The notes under the pieces are model-generated. The model was not told the DNA's origin. It was given only the letters and a program-made list of their open reading frames with translations, and ran no database searches. Below are positions 34,887-45,135 of a DNA stretch of 64,000 nucleotides, one piece after another. Each line of letters starts with the position of its first letter. Position 1 is the first letter of the stretch. Position numbers and translations under genes: made by a program. This stretch comes from Flavobacteriales bacterium (GTDB lineage: Bacteria > Bacteroidota > Bacteroidia > Flavobacteriales_G > Salibacteraceae): positions 1-64,000 of the forward strand of contig JABMOM010000045.1 of the NCBI GenBank assembly GCA_013204105.1, written 5' to 3'.

Positions 34887-35644
34887 GCCTTTTCAGACTG
34901 CAATTCGAGGAGTTTGCGGTAGCGAAGGTAGGTCGCGAAAGCCGAGTTCTTTGCGATCACCCACCCGTAGTACCCATCTAGAAATCCGAGTTTGATTACA
35001 TACGCCTTAATGAACTTCGCTGCAGTTTTAATCAGAATCTTGGGTCTATTGGAGCGAACGCCCTCTGCATACTTCGCCTTCGATGAAATGGCGCTGAATT
35101 TTTGAATCTGAGCCAAGTGCTCTTCCTCGGAATAAAACGAATAATGCAATAAATCGCCATTCAGTTTGCCCGCCTTTCGTCCTAAACTCATTTCATAGCG
35201 GTCGTGGGGATTTGTCCCTGTCCAAGCTCCCTGTCCCTTTCTAAACAAGCGTAGCTTGGTGTCAGGATACCATCCTCCGTGTCGAATCCATTTGCCGCAA
35301 AAATTGGTCAGCCGGTTCATCGTGTACCCGTCATGCTCAAATCGGTTTAGCGCTTCCTCAATGGAAGCTTTGAGTTCCGCGCCCAACGCTTCATCGGCGT
35401 CCAACGAAAGAATAATCTCGTGACTGGCTTGTTCAATGGCGAAATTCTTTTGCTCAATATGACCCAAAAATAATTGTTCAACGACCCGTGCACCTAAGGA
35501 TTCAGCAATCTCCTTGGTGCGATCCGTAGAGAGCGAATCAACCACCACGACCTCCTTTGCCAATCCGGCAACGCTTTCGATACATCGACCGATGTTGCGT
35601 TCCTCGTTGAGCGTGATAATGACTACTGAGAGGTCCTTCATCAT
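34883..35644 (-). CDS. Family 2 glycosyltransferase, WaaE/KdtX-like
   Basis: A 253-residue GT2 enzyme. SVVIITLNEERNIGRCIESV and VVVDSLSTDRTKEIAESLGA give the nucleotide site, and LSLDADEALGAEL the acidic metal motif. The FCGKWIRHGGWYPDTKLRLFRKG stretch and the Cys-less helical tail match the LPS-core beta-1,4-glucosyltransferase WaaE group. It starts with two adjacent ATG codons; the first overlaps the murF-alr stop as ATGA. Confidence 0.88.
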   Translation of the reverse strand: MMKDLSVVIITLNEERNIGRCIESVAGLAKEVVVVDSLSTDRTKEIAESLGARVVEQLFLGHIEQKNFAIEQASHEIILSLDADEALGAELKASIEEALNRFEHDGYTMNRLTNFCGKWIRHGGWYPDTKLRLFRKGQGAWTGTNPHDRYEMSLGRKAGKLNGDLLHYSFYSEEEHLAQIQKFSAISSKAKYAEGVRSNRPKILIKTAAKFIKAYVIKLGFLDGYYGWVIAKNSAFATYLRYRKLLELQSEKA

Positions 35645-38103
35645 TCGTGTAGGTATATCCTGCGCACGCGTTCGGGAATCTTGGTTAGTATCTCATAAGG
35701 AATCGTGCCCAGTTTTGCGGCCATTGCGGTAATCGAATCATTTCCTTCAAAAATGACTACTTCATCCCCTTCTTTTGCTTGTGTATGGGAGACGTCAATC
35801 ATCGTCATGTCCATGCAAATATTTCCGATGATCGGACATGGAATGCCTTGCCATAGGATATTCCAATTTCCATCACTGAGTCGCCGGTCTAGGCCATCCG
35901 CAAATCCGAGCGCTATTGTGGCCACCCGCCGAGCGGCATCTGCTCTTCCCTTCCTCGCATACCCCACTGAATCACCGGCATTCACTTCTCTGATTTGAAC
36001 AATGTAGCTCTTCAGAGAGCCGAGTGCATTGAGGAATCGATTCTCTTCGTTGCCACTGAACCCGTAAAGCCCAATGCCTAGTCGAACCATTTCGTAATGG
36101 AATTCAGGAAAACGAAGCACGCCAGTTGAGTTGAGCACGTGACGATCAGGTTGATAACCCAATGCCGCCACTACTTGGCTGTTCATGATGTCGAATCGCT
36201 CAATCTGCTCTCGTGTGAATGCATCGTGCGTTGCTTCGTCGGTGGCAGAGAGATGCGTAAAAATGCTGGCTACGCTAATAAACGGTGAGCTCGCAATGAG
36301 TTCTAAAGCTTCTTTGAGTTCCTGTTTTTCAAAACCCAACCTGTGCATGCCCGAGTCTAGCTTCAAATGGACTGGATAGCGTTCAAAGAAGTGGCGCATA
36401 CTTCTGGCTGCTCGAATGAAGTCCTTCAAGGCATTCAAGGAATAAATCTCAGGCTCCAATTCGTGTTGGATCATGCTCTCATACGAAGTTTTGCTGGGAC
36501 TCATGACCATGATCCGCAGGTTGATGCCCTTCTCCCGAAGCAGCATCCCTTCATCGGCATAAGCCACTACGAGGTAATGCACGGTCCGCTGGGATTGGAA
36601 AAAATGCGCGATTTCATACCCTCCACTTCCGTACGCAAAAGCCTTGACCATCACCATCACTTTGGTGTCCTCGGCTAGTTTGGATTGGAAGTAATTGAGG
36701 TTTTCCCCCAATTTCTGTAAGTCGATTTCAAGGGTTGTGATGCGTTGCTTCGCTTGCAGTCGATTGACCAACTTTTCCAGTCGGAATTGCCTGGCTCCTT
36801 TCACCAAAATCGCCTTATGCTTCAAGGTCTTCAAGTCCAACTGATCCCAATACTCATCCAAGGACGCAAAGCACTGGACCTTGATCGGAGCAAACAGGTC
36901 CTTATGCATCGCGATCTCAGGGCCAATGGCAATCAGGTGCGTTACCTCCGCTTCGAGTAGCATTTGTGCTATCTCCTGGTACGTATTTCCGAAGCTCTGC
37001 ATTTCCTTGAGATCACTCAAAATCACCCACTTATCGCGATCCGAGTGGGTCACGAGTTGATCTACCGAAGCGCGCAGTGAATGCAGATCAGAATTGTACG
37101 TATCATCGATGATCAGTGAATCTTCGATGCCTTGTTTCACCTCCATCCGCATGGCAATAGGTGACAACAATTCAAATCGATCGAGTACCGAATTATCCGT
37201 TTTGCCAAGCGTCCAAAGCATGGCGAAACAATGACCAGCATTCTCAATGCTCGCACGGTCAGTAAACGGAATGGAAAATTTGAATTGCTTCCCTTCGACC
37301 TTGGCTTGCAATTGCGTTTGATCATTCGACTGCTCAAATACTCTCAATTGAATTTGGGCCTTCTCTCCTTTCATCGACCAGAATACACATCGTTCACGCT
37401 CTTCTTTTGACAACCACTTCACCCATTTGTGGTCGGCGCATGCGCTGACTTTTTGGGCTGCTTTGAAGAGGCGCCACTTTTCTCCAAATTTCTGTTTGTC
37501 TGAACCAAAGTGGGCAGAGTGCGCGTCACCTAAGTTGGCCATGATTCCCAAGGTTGGACGCAAAATTTCCTCTAGCCGGTCCATTTCACCTGGTCTGGAG
37601 ATGCCGGCTTCGAAGATTGCCAAGCTGTCGTTGCTGCTCAATTCGAACACCGAAAGTGGAACCCCGATTTGAGAGTTGTAACTCTTTGGGCTTCGACAAA
37701 TTTGGAACTCACTTTCAAGCAATGCGTTGAGCCATTCCTTTATGATTGTTTTTCCGTTGCTTCCAGTAATTGCGATGACCGGTACGTCATAGTTATCCCT
37801 ATGCTCCGCCGCGATGCGCTGCAAGGCTTCGACCACATCATTCACGACAATAAAATTGGCCCTGCCCGCATACCGCTCAGCAATCTCCTCATCGGTGATT
37901 AAAAAATGATGCACTCTATAGTCGAGCAGTTCAGGAATGAAATCATGCCCATCGAAACGCGCTCCCTTTAGCGCCGCAAATAAGGCGTCATCGCGCTTAA
38001 GGATGCGATGATCCGCATTGATCCGGCCGACCTTTGAGCCGGGGAAAGCGATGTATGCCTTACCTCCACAGAAGTCTGCTATGCTTTCGATCGTATAATT
38101 CAT
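35641..38103 (-). CDS. Bifunctional UDP-MurNAc-tripeptide D-Ala-D-Ala ligase / alanine racemase
   Basis: An 820-residue fusion typical of Bacteroidota. Residues 1 to about 450 are MurF-like (ATP loop [35 protein letters not shown]). Residues about 455-820 are alanine racemase, with the PLP Lys in [27 protein letters not shown], the second catalytic Tyr in DSVGYARKG and [13 protein letters not shown]. It supplies D-Ala and attaches D-Ala-D-Ala to the peptidoglycan precursor. It shares four-base overlaps with tdk upstream and the GT2 gene downstream. Confidence 0.96.
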
Positions 38104-40725: not shown

Positions 40726-41679
40726 TTAACGCTTTATGGTCACGCTTCCACGAGCGTTCTGATCCACATAAGGTAAGCCATCATCCCCCACGGCGCGTAT
40801 CTCATAGAAGTATACCCCGTTCGGAAGTGCATTACCGAATCGATCGACACCATTCCAACGTACATTGATATCCCGTGATTCGAAGACAATTTGGCCGCTT
40901 TGGGTTGCAATCTGAAGGAAGAAGTCCTTCACACCATAGCCTTCGATGGTCATGTGTTCGTTGAATGGATCTCCATTTGGCGTAATCATCTGGCGAGCTT
41001 CGTGTGTGAAGTAGGCTGTAGTTGAAGCTTCGGGAGCTGTATGCTGCTCGGCTGGAGTAACTACCTCAACGTCTCGTTTTTGATTCGATGGTTGCTCAGC
41101 CACTTGTTGCTCTGGGCCGCGTTCTTCTGTCTTCTCTTGCGTGCTCGTTGCGGTGGCCAGGGCTTTTTCATGCTCAAACGGCTCACTGCTTGCTATGCCG
41201 TCGTTAAGACCGCCCTTAGCAAGCGCGGGATTGGATTCGATCGGCAAGATCTCGCTTTCGTTTGCAGTGATTTCTTGGATGCCCGGCTCTTCGATTGATA
41301 CCAGCTCCCCATCTGTCGAAACCTCAATGGCTTCAGAAACCTTGTTCACGCTTGCAGGACTTGCTGCAATGGCTGTAGCAGCATGCTGTGTCGTAGGCTC
41401 GGAACCGATGGTCTCCGTAGTTTCTATAGTTGCCTCGTGAGCAACACCGGTTTGATAGTTGATTTCCGCTATGGTAGCTGCAGTCATCAATCCTGCAAAT
41501 CCTATTACGGCGGCTGCCTTCGCTAGGAAAGTTGTCCCTCCCGCTGCTCCAGAAGCTGCCGCTCCAGCCTGACCCAAGGATGCTTCGATCCCGCTCCAGA
41601 CTTTTGGACTGACATCCATCTCATGGGAGGCAAACGCCTCTCGGAAGATGTCTTCAATGTTATGTTCGTTCTTCGTCAT
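40726..41679 (-). CDS. Membrane protein with anti-sigma-like N terminus and a gliding-motility-type C-terminal domain
   Basis: A 317-residue protein. Residues 1 to about 45 (NIEDIFREAFASHEMDVSPKVWSGIEASL) look like the short cytoplasmic sigma-binding helices of Bacteroidota anti-sigma factors; one membrane helix follows (about residues 50-70); a long Glu/Ala/Ser-rich linker; then an end domain (MITPNGDPFNEHMTIEG ... VRWNGVDRFGNALPNGVYFYEI) of the gliding-motility-associated (T9SS type B-like) family. It overlaps the upstream ECF sigma gene by one base (TAATG). Most likely the membrane partner of that sigma factor. Confidence 0.7.
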   Translation of the reverse strand: MTKNEHNIEDIFREAFASHEMDVSPKVWSGIEASLGQAGAAASGAAGGTTFLAKAAAVIGFAGLMTAATIAEINYQTGVAHEATIETTETIGSEPTTQHAATAIAASPASVNKVSEAIEVSTDGELVSIEEPGIQEITANESEILPIESNPALAKGGLNDGIASSEPFEHEKALATATSTQEKTEERGPEQQVAEQPSNQKRDVEVVTPAEQHTAPEASTTAYFTHEARQMITPNGDPFNEHMTIEGYGVKDFFLQIATQSGQIVFESRDINVRWNGVDRFGNALPNGVYFYEIRAVGDDGLPYVDQNARGSVTIKR

Positions 41680-42215
41680 TATATGTTCTCTCGTTCGACG
41701 ATGATATTCATCAAATATGTTCGCGCTTTGCGAAATTGCGTTTTCGAGGTGCTTTCCGTCACACCTAACTGCTCAGCGATCTCTTGGTGCGAGTACCCTT
41801 CGATCGCAAACATGTTGAACACCGTTCGGTACCCAGCAGGCATGTTCTCGATCAAGGTCATCAGTTCCTCCACCCTCAGTTTTCCAACAGATTTTTCTTC
41901 GTCACCAGCTAAATACTCAGCTTCGGAGATATCTGCGTCAATCTGCATCCGGTTGGATTTTCGAATGTGATCCAGACAGGTATTCACCATCGTCCTTCGG
42001 ATCCATCCTTCGAAACTTCCCTCGCCTTTGAATTTGCTCAGGTTGGAAAACACTTTAATGAATCCATCCTGCAACCAATCCTCTGCCAGTTCGACGTCGG
42101 AAGCGTAGCGCATGCATACCGACATCATCTTTCGCGAAAACTTGTCAAATAACGCTTTTTGCGCCTTCTGATCGTTCTTCAAACACTGCTCAATTAGCTG
42201 ATTGTCTGTCATCAT
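41679..42215 (-). CDS. ECF-type RNA polymerase sigma factor
   Basis: A 178-residue sigma-70 family protein with region 2 (DQKAQKALFDKFSRKMMSVCMRYASDVELAEDWLQDGFIKVF-like, residues about 15-60) and region 4 (YRTVFNMFAIEGYSHQEIAEQLGVTESTSKTQFRKAR, about residues 120-165); regions 1 and 3 are absent. It directs RNA polymerase to alternative promoters. The membrane protein next in the operon is the probable regulator. CAGTTTTG, one mismatch from TAnnTTTG, lies five bases upstream of the start. Confidence 0.92.
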   Translation of the reverse strand: MMTDNQLIEQCLKNDQKAQKALFDKFSRKMMSVCMRYASDVELAEDWLQDGFIKVFSNLSKFKGEGSFEGWIRRTMVNTCLDHIRKSNRMQIDADISEAEYLAGDEEKSVGKLRVEELMTLIENMPAGYRTVFNMFAIEGYSHQEIAEQLGVTESTSKTQFRKARTYLMNIIVERENI

Positions 42216-42503: not shown

Positions 42504-43502
42504 ATGAAGATCTCCGCTTCGGTATATTCCAGTAAGGAAACTTCCCTTGAACAGCTGATCAAGGACCTCGACCAACACGGTATCGATTATTTCCACATCG
42601 ACTGCCGGGACAACCCTCAGGTGTTTGATGACATCGAAGAGATTCGCCGTTATAGCGACACTCCGATCGATCTTCATTTGATCACCGCGAACCCCGAACA
42701 GTATTTTGAGCGCATCAACGCCTTGAAGATTGAATTCGTAACGCTTCAACATGAAGACTTGAGTGGATACGTATATACGGGTGGATGCTCAGCAAGCATG
42801 GGGCTGAGCATTATATCAGATACGGAAATTGATGTTTTCGACCCCACTCATTACGACTTCATTCTGATGATGGCGACCATTCCAGGGGAGAGCGGCGGTC
42901 GGTTTGATAAGATCAATTTTAGGAAGATCAGGCGTTTCAAACGTCGTTTCCCGGAAAGGGGCATTCACGTGGATGGTGGTGTCAACGCGGAAGTGAGTTT
43001 CATCCTTAGAAACATGGGCGTACACGCCTCGGTGGTTGGGTCGTACCTCTTCAAGAATTTGCCCATCGGCGCTGCCTTGCTGAATCTGAAACTTCACGAT
43101 ATTGAGAGTCACTACACCGTAGGCGATTTCATGCGTAGTCGCGAGGAAACACCCATCGTTGGACCGGCAGATCGAAGTTTACGCGCTGTGTTGCAGACCA
43201 TTGAAGACTACAAGCTAGGCTTCACCATTTTAGAAGACACCGAGCAGCGGATCGAAGGCATCGTCAGTAATGCGGACCTACGCAGAGAAGTGCTGCGCAA
43301 TGTGGATCACCCGGAGCAGATGGAGGTAACCGCGATGATCAATCGCTCTCCGATTGCCATAGAGGATCACATGACCGTGAGTGCCATGCTGCTCTATTTG
43401 AAAGAATTTGATTTTCCAATCAATTACCTTCCGGTGGTTGATGGTGATAAAAAAGTGAAGGGTGTTGTATCCTTCCTCAACCTTGTAAAAGGCGAACTAT
43501 GA
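42504..43502 (+). CDS. Ribulose-phosphate 3-epimerase-like domain fused to two CBS domains
   Basis: A 332-residue fusion. Residues 1 to about 195 are an RPE-type TIM barrel that keeps the metal and catalytic positions: His31 and Asp33 (FHID), His58 (IDLHLI) and Asp157 (HVDGGVN), plus IPGESGGRF at the phosphate loop. Residues about 205-332 are a tandem CBS pair (EGIVSNADLRREVL; PVVDGDKKVKGVVSFLNL). CBS pairs normally follow the SIS domain in the Kdo enzyme KdsD; here they follow an epimerase. It could convert ribulose 5-phosphate to xylulose 5-phosphate or act on another ketose phosphate, with nucleotide control. It overlaps the next gene by four bases. Confidence 0.8.
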   Translation: MKISASVYSSKETSLEQLIKDLDQHGIDYFHIDCRDNPQVFDDIEEIRRYSDTPIDLHLITANPEQYFERINALKIEFVTLQHEDLSGYVYTGGCSASMGLSIISDTEIDVFDPTHYDFILMMATIPGESGGRFDKINFRKIRRFKRRFPERGIHVDGGVNAEVSFILRNMGVHASVVGSYLFKNLPIGAALLNLKLHDIESHYTVGDFMRSREETPIVGPADRSLRAVLQTIEDYKLGFTILEDTEQRIEGIVSNADLRREVLRNVDHPEQMEVTAMINRSPIAIEDHMTVSAMLLYLKEFDFPINYLPVVDGDKKVKGVVSFLNLVKGEL

Positions 43503-44497
43503 TCATTCATTTGAGACCGAATGTCTCCGAACAGGAGGCGCATCGTTTCGCAGCTATGACTACCTCCGCCATCTTTCACGATGGCGAACGTTTTGTCTTG
43601 GTGACCCCATCAAAGCTGCAGGAAATTCCTGCGGAAATCGAACCCAGCGCTGAAGCACATTGGGCCATGGATTCCGATATCCAATTGGCCAGTCGAAGCT
43701 ATTCCGCGCCCACGCGCACCGTTCAATTGGGACAGCAAGCCATCGGCGGTGAAACCAACAACACGATGGTAATCGCAGGGCCGTGTTCTGTTGAATCCGA
43801 GGAGCAGATAAGACAAAGCGCCGAACTGATGAAGGAACTTGGCATCCATGGCCTTCGTGGGGGATGTTACAAGCCCCGAACTTCTCCCTATTCTTTTCAA
43901 GGACTCGGACGAGAAGGCTTGCAATTGCTCGCTAAAATGAGGGAAGAGTATGGATTTGTCATCGTAAGCGAGGTGCGGGATGCAACCCACGTGGATGACG
44001 TCATCGCCTTCGCTGATGTGATCCAGATCGGCGCAAAAAGCATGTATGATCACGGTATTCTCAAGGCTTGCGCAAAGACAGACAAAGCCGTTCTCATCAA
44101 GCGGGGCTTTGGAACAACATTGCAAGAGTTCGCGCAAGCCGCCGAATTTGTGCTTTCAGGGGGAAACCCAAACGTAATGCTGTGCGAACGTGGGATCAGA
44201 ACATTCGAAACAAAGACGCGGTTCACGCTTGATCTCTGCGGTGTTGCCTGGCTCAAGGAGCACATCAACCTTCCGATCATCTTAGACCCGTCTCATGCAC
44301 TCGGCTACCGCTACGGCATCGAAGACCTCAGTAAAGCATGTGTTGCCATGGGTATTGACGGCTTGCTCGTCGAAGTCCACCCCGACCCCTCAGTGGCAAA
44401 GAGCGACGCAGCACAACAACTTTACCACGACCAGTTTCGGCACCTCCTCAAAGCCATTAAGCCGGTGGCAGAAGCGGTAGGACGGCACATTGTATGA
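43499..44497 (+). CDS. Class I-beta DAHP-synthase-like enzyme
   Basis: A 332-residue protein. Residues 1 to about 75 form a small ferredoxin-like N-terminal domain as in Thermotoga-type DAHP synthase; the TIM barrel follows. Key motifs: GPCSVES (94-100), KPRTSPYSFQG (from 125), LCERGIRTFETKTRFTLDL, DPSHALGYR and LLVEVHPDPSVAKSDAAQQL. KPRTS marks erythrose 4-phosphate use (DAHP), whereas Kdo8P synthases have KANRS. It condenses PEP with an aldose phosphate. DPSHALGYR replaces the usual DPSHGTGKR. Coupled by four-base overlaps on both sides to the epimerase-CBS gene and a KdsC-like phosphatase. It may start the shikimate pathway or make a ulosonate. Confidence 0.88.
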   Translation: MIIHLRPNVSEQEAHRFAAMTTSAIFHDGERFVLVTPSKLQEIPAEIEPSAEAHWAMDSDIQLASRSYSAPTRTVQLGQQAIGGETNNTMVIAGPCSVESEEQIRQSAELMKELGIHGLRGGCYKPRTSPYSFQGLGREGLQLLAKMREEYGFVIVSEVRDATHVDDVIAFADVIQIGAKSMYDHGILKACAKTDKAVLIKRGFGTTLQEFAQAAEFVLSGGNPNVMLCERGIRTFETKTRFTLDLCGVAWLKEHINLPIILDPSHALGYRYGIEDLSKACVAMGIDGLLVEVHPDPSVAKSDAAQQLYHDQFRHLLKAIKPVAEAVGRHIV

Positions 44498-45135
44498 TCT
44501 ATCTTAAAGAGAATATTGCCTACTTAAAAAGCTTGGATACCGAGCTTGACCTCAGTGAAGATCCGACGCTTTCCGAACTGGAGACGCTGGCTGAACAACT
44601 CGGTATCCCCCTGGATGTCCTTTTACTGAGGAGCATGCAACACACGGATCTTCCTTGGAGTGACATCCGATTCGTTTTCTTGGATGTAGATGGTGTTTTA
44701 ACAGAAGGAGGCATGTTCTACACGGAGAGCGGCGATGAATTCAAACGCTTTGACACGAAGGATGGTATGGCCATCAAACAAGCCATGCAGAAAGGCATCA
44801 CATTTGGCATCGTTTCGTCCGGGGTAAATCAATCCATCATCCAACACCGAGCTGAGATGTTCGGAATCGAGCACGTGTACGTCGGTACGGATCCAAAGCT
44901 TGAAATCGCTGCACAATGGCTAGATAAACTAGGCCTTTCATGGGAGCAGGTAGGGTATATCGGAGACGATATCAACGACCTACAGATGTTCGACAAATCC
45001 CGCATTGCCGCCTGTCCTTCTGACGCCACCCAACCCATAAAAGAAGCCGCGGATTTTGTGCTTCAGTCCAAAGGCGGACACGGTTGTGTGCGTGAATACT
45101 TGCGCTGTTTTCCTCCATTGATTGAGGTGCTATGA
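44494..45135 (+). CDS. KdsC-like HAD phosphatase with an extra N-terminal domain
   Basis: A 213-residue protein. Residues about 58-213 are a HAD-IIIA phosphatase of the KdsC/CMP-sugar phosphatase type: nucleophile Asp64 in FLDVDGVLTEGGMFY, FDTKDGMAIK, VSSGVNQSII, and GYIGDDINDLQMF. KdsC itself removes phosphate from Kdo8P. The first 55 residues are not part of that family; NIAYLKSLD ... DPTLSELETLAEQLGIPLDVLLL resembles the second half of an XRE/Cro repressor domain. It overlaps the DAHP-synthase-like gene and rsmI by four bases each. The substrate is probably a ulosonate phosphate. Confidence 0.85.
   Translation: MIYLKENIAYLKSLDTELDLSEDPTLSELETLAEQLGIPLDVLLLRSMQHTDLPWSDIRFVFLDVDGVLTEGGMFYTESGDEFKRFDTKDGMAIKQAMQKGITFGIVSSGVNQSIIQHRAEMFGIEHVYVGTDPKLEIAAQWLDKLGLSWEQVGYIGDDINDLQMFDKSRIAACPSDATQPIKEAADFVLQSKGGHGCVREYLRCFPPLIEVL

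Follow-up and report, generated by a model that had tools for sequence, protein, structure and literature searches.

Kdo is the sugar that anchors lipopolysaccharide (LPS), and in the canonical pathway it is supplied through KdsD, KdsA, KdsC, and KdsB, with WaaA acting downstream. KdsA is regarded as the standard Kdo 8-phosphate (Kdo8P) synthase of LPS bacteria and as an antibacterial target. In Escherichia coli, kdsD precedes kdsC-lptCAB. The locus described here, three open reading frames at positions 42504-45135 of a Flavobacteriales contig, resembles this pathway in the order of its roles (a CBS-tagged enzyme, a PEP condensation, and a HAD phosphatase), in the later-acting KdsB and WaaA, and, across its relatives, in linkage to kdsB and, in most gammaproteobacterial loci, to kdsC-lptCAB. 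Unlike the canonical enzymes, however, the first protein has a barrel of the ribulose-phosphate 3-epimerase (RPE) type in place of the SIS domain, and the second is of the type I-beta 3-deoxy-7-phosphoheptulonate synthase (DAHPS) type, with a KPRTS motif and none of the KdsA insertions.

All three genes lie on the plus strand of the window, the 64,000-nt stretch that we analyzed, which is part of one contig of a 3.1 Mb assembly (96% complete). We propose that gene 1 (RPE-CBS; 42504-43502) encodes a KdsD substitute forming arabinose 5-phosphate, that gene 2 (DAHPS-like; 43499-44497) encodes a PEP condensing enzyme substituting for KdsA, and that gene 3 (KdsC-like HAD; 44494-45135) encodes a ulosonate-phosphate phosphatase. 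The genes are joined by ATGA overlaps at 43499-43502 (genes 1 and 2) and 44494-44497 (genes 2 and 3), and are referred to below as the trio. The frames and the four-base overlaps match the initial annotation exactly, and Pfam/NCBIfam searches confirm the families. Two other features of the window were recorded. Divergent from the trio, positions 40726-42215 encode an ECF sigma factor adjoining a protein with a type IX secretion CHU_C domain, a pair that is kept beside the trio within the genus. On the minus strand, positions 35641-38103 hold a single 820-aa ORF that appears by eye to be a Mur-ligase-like and alanine-racemase-like fusion.

RPE abstracts a proton from the carbon adjacent to a carbonyl and adds it back on the opposite face, with the help of two aspartates and a metal. 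Gene 1 (332 aa) shares with this enzyme the barrel, the His/Asp/His/Asp site, and the phosphate-binding glycines: the Pfam model Ribul_P_3_epim matches residues 2-183 (5.7e-21), and the metal and catalytic residues H31, D33, H58, and D157 are common to gene 1 and the genome's own RPE. In contrast to RPE, gene 1 is only 26% identical to that protein, has lost six residues from the capping active-site loop after the catalytic Asp, and carries an added CBS pair of the KdsD type; it also scores below the cut-off of the rpe equivalog model (71.8 of 212.6 bits). The CBS pair (8.4e-11) spans about residues 204-329 (43113-43490, plus strand). A SIS isomerase domain was sought in gene 1 and none was found; the KpsF/KdsD model TIGR00393 matches the CBS part only. 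In the AlphaFold (AF2) model (mean pLDDT 91.0), the barrel matches RPEs and the CBS pair matches that of an arabinose-5-phosphate isomerase (4o9k), which we take to have been solved with CMP-Kdo. Gene 1 is conserved across the 43-sequence alignment A3; the four site residues and the six-residue loop deletion are features of the RPE-like proteins as a group, and a VIA-align comparison gave nothing further on its CBS part.

Gene 2 (332 aa) belongs to the type I-beta DAHPS family, exceeding the curated cut-offs of the 3-deoxy-7-phosphoheptulonate synthase model PRK08673 (NCBIfam; 362 bits against 335) and of TIGR01361 (310 against 267.75) and carrying KPRTS; against the KdsA model TIGR01362, it stays below the cut-off (129 of 314 bits). 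The KPRTS motif (residues 125-129; 43871-43885, plus strand) is invariant in 34 trio sequences and is of the DAHPS type, and the corresponding motif in KdsA of trio-free relatives is KANRS or KDNRS. When fold matches to the AlphaFold model (mean pLDDT 91.9) are ranked, the DAHPSs of Thermotoga, Pyrococcus, and Aeropyrum come first and KdsA follows. With the type I-beta enzymes of T. maritima (1rzm) and P. furiosus (1zco), gene 2 shares the fold, KPRTS, and the aligned metal and PEP residues; unlike them, it has a divergent N-terminal domain, is not the sole DAHPS of its genome, and falls in a clade of its own. In our tree, the trio DAHPS-like proteins form this clade of 86 sequences apart from both I-beta DAHPS and KdsA. 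Their identity is 36-42% with I-beta DAHPS from related genomes and 28-36% with KdsA. Their invariant residues include IGAK[SA]MYD, against VGARN[ST]QN in DAHPS and the IPA-type sequence in KdsA, and TRFTLDLCG, against TRNTLDLNA in DAHPS. Such trio-specific differences cluster where the lining of the active site is expected. The KdsA arginine aligned there is presumably Arg106 of Aquifex KdsA, and structures in which Arg106 is mutated are among the fold matches of gene 2.

Gene 3 (213 aa) is a member of the KdsC/YrbI subfamily (TIGR01670, 130.8 bits; cut-off 106.95). Its score against the KDN-9-phosphatase equivalog is slightly better but below the cut-off (138 of 180 bits), and it carries an N-terminal extension of about 55 residues. 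A second KdsC-like copy lies elsewhere in the source genome among unrelated genes, and KdsC is kept beside the trio HAD in several gammaproteobacterial loci as well, exceeding the KdsC equivalog cut-off in L109. Because KdsC is retained alongside it, the trio HAD may have another substrate.

The trio is a strongly conserved block, found in many Bacteroidota families and one gammaproteobacterial lineage. Our relatives sample comprised 60 genomes, 55 of which (17 with the trio, 38 trio-free) entered the KdsA comparison. In this sample, 12 of the 13 genomes belonging to the genus encode full-length RPE-CBS. The other members of the family lack it, and four distant families of the class have it again (44-46% identity). 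In all of these, the DAHPS-like and HAD genes come next unless the contig ends, and the genes around the trio in the distant families are entirely different. The relative in G043 (L056:4660-5577) is shorter (35% identity), with a degenerate CBS part and with its DAHPS-like and HAD partners intact. When 84,980 species genomes were scanned, 392 encoded RPE-CBS relatives were confirmed. Among the best 80 of these 392 loci, a DAHPS-like gene comes next in 75, with the ATGA overlap between genes 1 and 2 in 68, and the HAD gene follows in 68; most of the remaining loci end at a contig boundary or belong to genomes with the DAHPS-like gene at another site. Each of the four loci that lack an adjacent copy comes from a genome with a trio-type DAHPS at such a site. 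The Bacteroidota loci come from Flavobacteriales, Crocinitomicaceae, Saprospiraceae, Cyclobacteriaceae, Marivirga, and others, and the gammaproteobacterial loci from the lineage with Thiohalophilus and Halorhodospira, including the cultured Thiohalophilus thiocyanatoxydans DSM 16326. The gammaproteobacterial DAHPS-like sequences group together in one clade (support 0.99), next to L108, L116, L118, and L123, whose records are mostly labeled Flavobacteriales. This placement suggests horizontal transfer; since the support at the trio root is weak (0.71), its direction is a suggestion only.

The distribution of the trio is complementary to that of KdsA. In the source genome, a PF00793 search, which finds KdsA in the relatives, returned the trio enzyme and a DAHPS fusion only, with no KdsA, and no SIS-type KdsD was found. 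The DAHPS fusion (L002) has, by eye, the C-terminal extension of the chorismate-mutase (CM) fusion type, and the genome also holds a canonical RPE, KdsB, and WaaA. KdsA is missing from 16 of the 17 trio genomes and present in 35 of the 38 trio-free ones, of which G053 was counted from a contig-edge fragment (Fisher 5e-10, a test that ignores shared ancestry, 12 of the 17 trio genomes belonging to one genus); absence here means absence in HMM searches of genomes that are often incomplete MAGs. KdsD exceeds its cut-off in none of the 17 trio genomes and in 17 trio-free genomes. Searches of another 42 trio genomes yielded neither a full-length KdsA nor a KdsD over the cut-off, with a few contig-edge fragments left unclassified. 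Among 58 relatives of Thiohalophilus, KdsA is missing in 7 of 7 trio genomes and in 6 of the 51 others (Fisher 6e-6, again regardless of ancestry). The exclusion recurs in several families and in another phylum. To distinguish KdsA from the trio enzymes in these comparisons, we used frame length, score, and position, together with the sequence itself wherever the DNA had been retrieved.

These results bear on whether gene 2 could be an ordinary aromatic DAHPS that is a chance neighbor of an RPE paralogue and a phosphatase, the plain alternative named in the initial annotation. Its scores over the cut-offs of the DAHPS models agree with that explanation. However, nearly all trio genomes have a second DAHPS (a CM-type fusion or type I-alpha), and the trio enzymes form a separate monophyletic subfamily at the identity to I-beta DAHPS given above. 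Together with the conservation of the block, its linkage to kdsB, and the exclusion of KdsA, this leads us to reject the alternative as extremely improbable. Besides the aromatic DAHPS, the trio enzyme is the sole PF00793 candidate for a Kdo8P synthase in trio genomes with KdsB and WaaA, with the exception of G006.

Genes for the later Kdo steps are retained. All 17 trio genomes in the relatives sample encode KdsB, one of them, a 78% complete assembly, as split fragments, and WaaA was found in 51 of the 55 trio genomes searched. The KdsB columns conserved in trio-free genomes are kept in the sampled trio genomes, with conservative changes except for one W/V difference. Furthermore, kdsB adjoins the trio in all ten distinct gammaproteobacterial loci, and in most of them it occupies the position that kdsD has in E. 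coli. Specifically, the trio is divergent from kdsB-kdsC-lptC-lptA-lptB in L109, L110, L112, L114, L117, and L210, and from kdsB, seen up to the contig end, in L115; the order is trio-kdsB-glycosyltransferase in L119 and trio-glycosyltransferase-kdsB in L113 and L209, where the glycosyltransferase of all three loci resembles, by eye, an LPS heptosyltransferase. In L111 and L130, two further loci from the Bacteroidota-type set, kdsB lies within a few kilobases of the trio. The intact KdsB residues, the retained WaaA, and the linkage to kdsB/kdsC-lptCAB or a glycosyltransferase favor Kdo or a near-identical ulosonate as the product. As such, the seven-carbon, DAH-like product suggested in the initial annotation is not favored.

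A broader form of that idea is that the trio makes some other 3-deoxy-ulosonate (for example, a C7 sugar built on erythrose 4-phosphate or threose 4-phosphate, or else a C8 stereoisomer) that replaces the Kdo of the lipid A-core and is tolerated by KdsB and WaaA. Several features are consistent with it: KPRTS and the overall DAHPS family of gene 2, active-region residues that differ from both DAHPS and KdsA, the slightly closer score of gene 3 to the KDN-9-phosphatase model, the retention of KdsC beside the trio HAD, and the metal-to-phosphate spacing of RPE, which would fit the C1-C2 enediolate of a tetrose 4-phosphate. Yet the conserved columns of KdsB show no trio-specific change, and lineages that otherwise have their downstream genes in common differ in whether they carry the trio or KdsA. 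We therefore consider another ulosonate rather unlikely.

Altogether, trio genomes without KdsA and KdsD keep WaaA and, where sampled, KdsB, nearly all have another DAHPS, and some of them link the trio to kdsB. For these reasons, we think it probable from the comparative sequence evidence that the trio is a non-orthologous replacement of KdsD and KdsA, supplying KdsB and WaaA with Kdo or with a very close analogue of it. The suggestion in the initial annotation that the genes stand in for kdsD-kdsA(-kdsC) is thus supported by the second DAHPS of the source genome, the absence of kdsA and kdsD, the retention of kdsB and waaA, and the conservation of the block.

A further alternative limits the replacement to gene 2. 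The DAHPS-like enzyme alone might replace KdsA; RPE-CBS would then be an epimerase of pentose phosphates, under regulation, that increases the supply of precursor, and arabinose 5-phosphate would come from an isomerase that escapes detection. The catalytic residues of RPE are indeed retained in gene 1, and the trio-free genome G036 has only a partial, low-scoring SIS gene, so unusual isomerases can fall under the cut-off. On the other hand, KdsD is over the cut-off in no trio genome tested, the CBS pair of gene 1 is of the KdsD type, six residues are gone from the loop by the catalytic Asp, and a canonical RPE is present elsewhere in the genome. In our judgment, such a division of roles is improbable.

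A role for gene 1 in making the acceptor sugar phosphate is further supported by a parallel arrangement. In trio-free relatives without KdsD, an aldolase of the TAL/FSA type fused to the same CBS pair directly adjoins kdsA, and in most such loci a KdsC-like HAD gene then follows the FSA-CBS gene. Of the KdsA-bearing trio-free genomes in the 55-genome sample, 17 have a SIS-type KdsD, to which G036 with its partial SIS gene is added, and 16 have FSA-CBS, with the fragmented G053 in addition. This block resembles the trio in placing a CBS-tagged sugar-phosphate enzyme by a PEP condensing enzyme and a HAD, and differs in that its core is a class I aldolase and its condensing enzyme is a true KdsA, with KDNRS. 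One kind of CBS pair is thus found on three unrelated cores, each partnering a PEP-condensing enzyme, which supports the assignment of gene 1. E. coli FsaA cleaves arabinose 5-phosphate into glyceraldehyde 3-phosphate and glycolaldehyde (PMC6900487), so the reverse reaction could make arabinose 5-phosphate, and FSA-CBS is a candidate for a second non-SIS source of this sugar.

The kdsA-FSA-CBS block was seen at L084:4539-7123 and also in L083, L085, L087-L089, L092, L095, and L215-L220, all from Bacteroidota without a SIS-type KdsD, and in most of these loci with a divergent KdsC-like HAD gene behind it. The KdsA proteins partnered with FSA-CBS in L083, L084, L085, and L086 have KDNRS and not the usual KANRS. 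G006 carries both the trio (L050) and a kdsA/FSA-CBS/HAD block (L086:4412-6895), which are similar in base composition. Contamination as the origin of its two systems was not supported by the composition test, and the contigs look like one genome. The two systems can therefore coexist, and G006 is possibly an evolutionary intermediate.

In the proposed replacement pathway, gene 1 would epimerize ribose 5-phosphate at C2 to arabinose 5-phosphate, instead of ribulose 5-phosphate at C3, which would shift the two-aspartate, metal-enediolate mechanism of RPE by one carbon; alternatively, it would form arabinose 5-phosphate by 1,2-isomerization of ribulose 5-phosphate. Nucleotide-based control of gene 1 through the CBS pair is plausible, and a pair of the KdsD type may respond to CMP-Kdo or another nucleotide of the pathway. 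In the next step, gene 2 would condense arabinose 5-phosphate with PEP to Kdo8P, which the gene 3 HAD, or the retained KdsC, would dephosphorylate, and KdsB and WaaA would proceed as usual. No published description of the trio was found in the literature searched, which did not cover subscription journals, so absence is not proven. On balance, we lean toward a widespread and previously undescribed KdsA-free route to Kdo, with an RPE-fold enzyme for arabinose 5-phosphate (possibly a ribose-5-phosphate 2-epimerase), a Kdo8P synthase of the DAHPS family, and horizontal transfer between Bacteroidota and Gammaproteobacteria.

The replacement reading can be tested in cultured strains, namely T. thiocyanatoxydans DSM 16326, Marivirga sericea DSM 4125, and Brumimicrobium salinarum LHR20. 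If it is true, many proteins that would at present be labeled "DAHP synthase" or "ribulose-phosphate epimerase" need a corrected annotation, and the trio would be a clean case of one pathway step refilled by unrelated folds with the regulatory CBS pair kept. Taken with the FSA-CBS block, the supply of the Kdo precursor would then be a story of repeated enzyme replacement around one sensor domain. A module that makes KdsA dispensable would explain the absence of this enzyme in marine and freshwater groups of Bacteroidota and in one lineage of Gammaproteobacteria.
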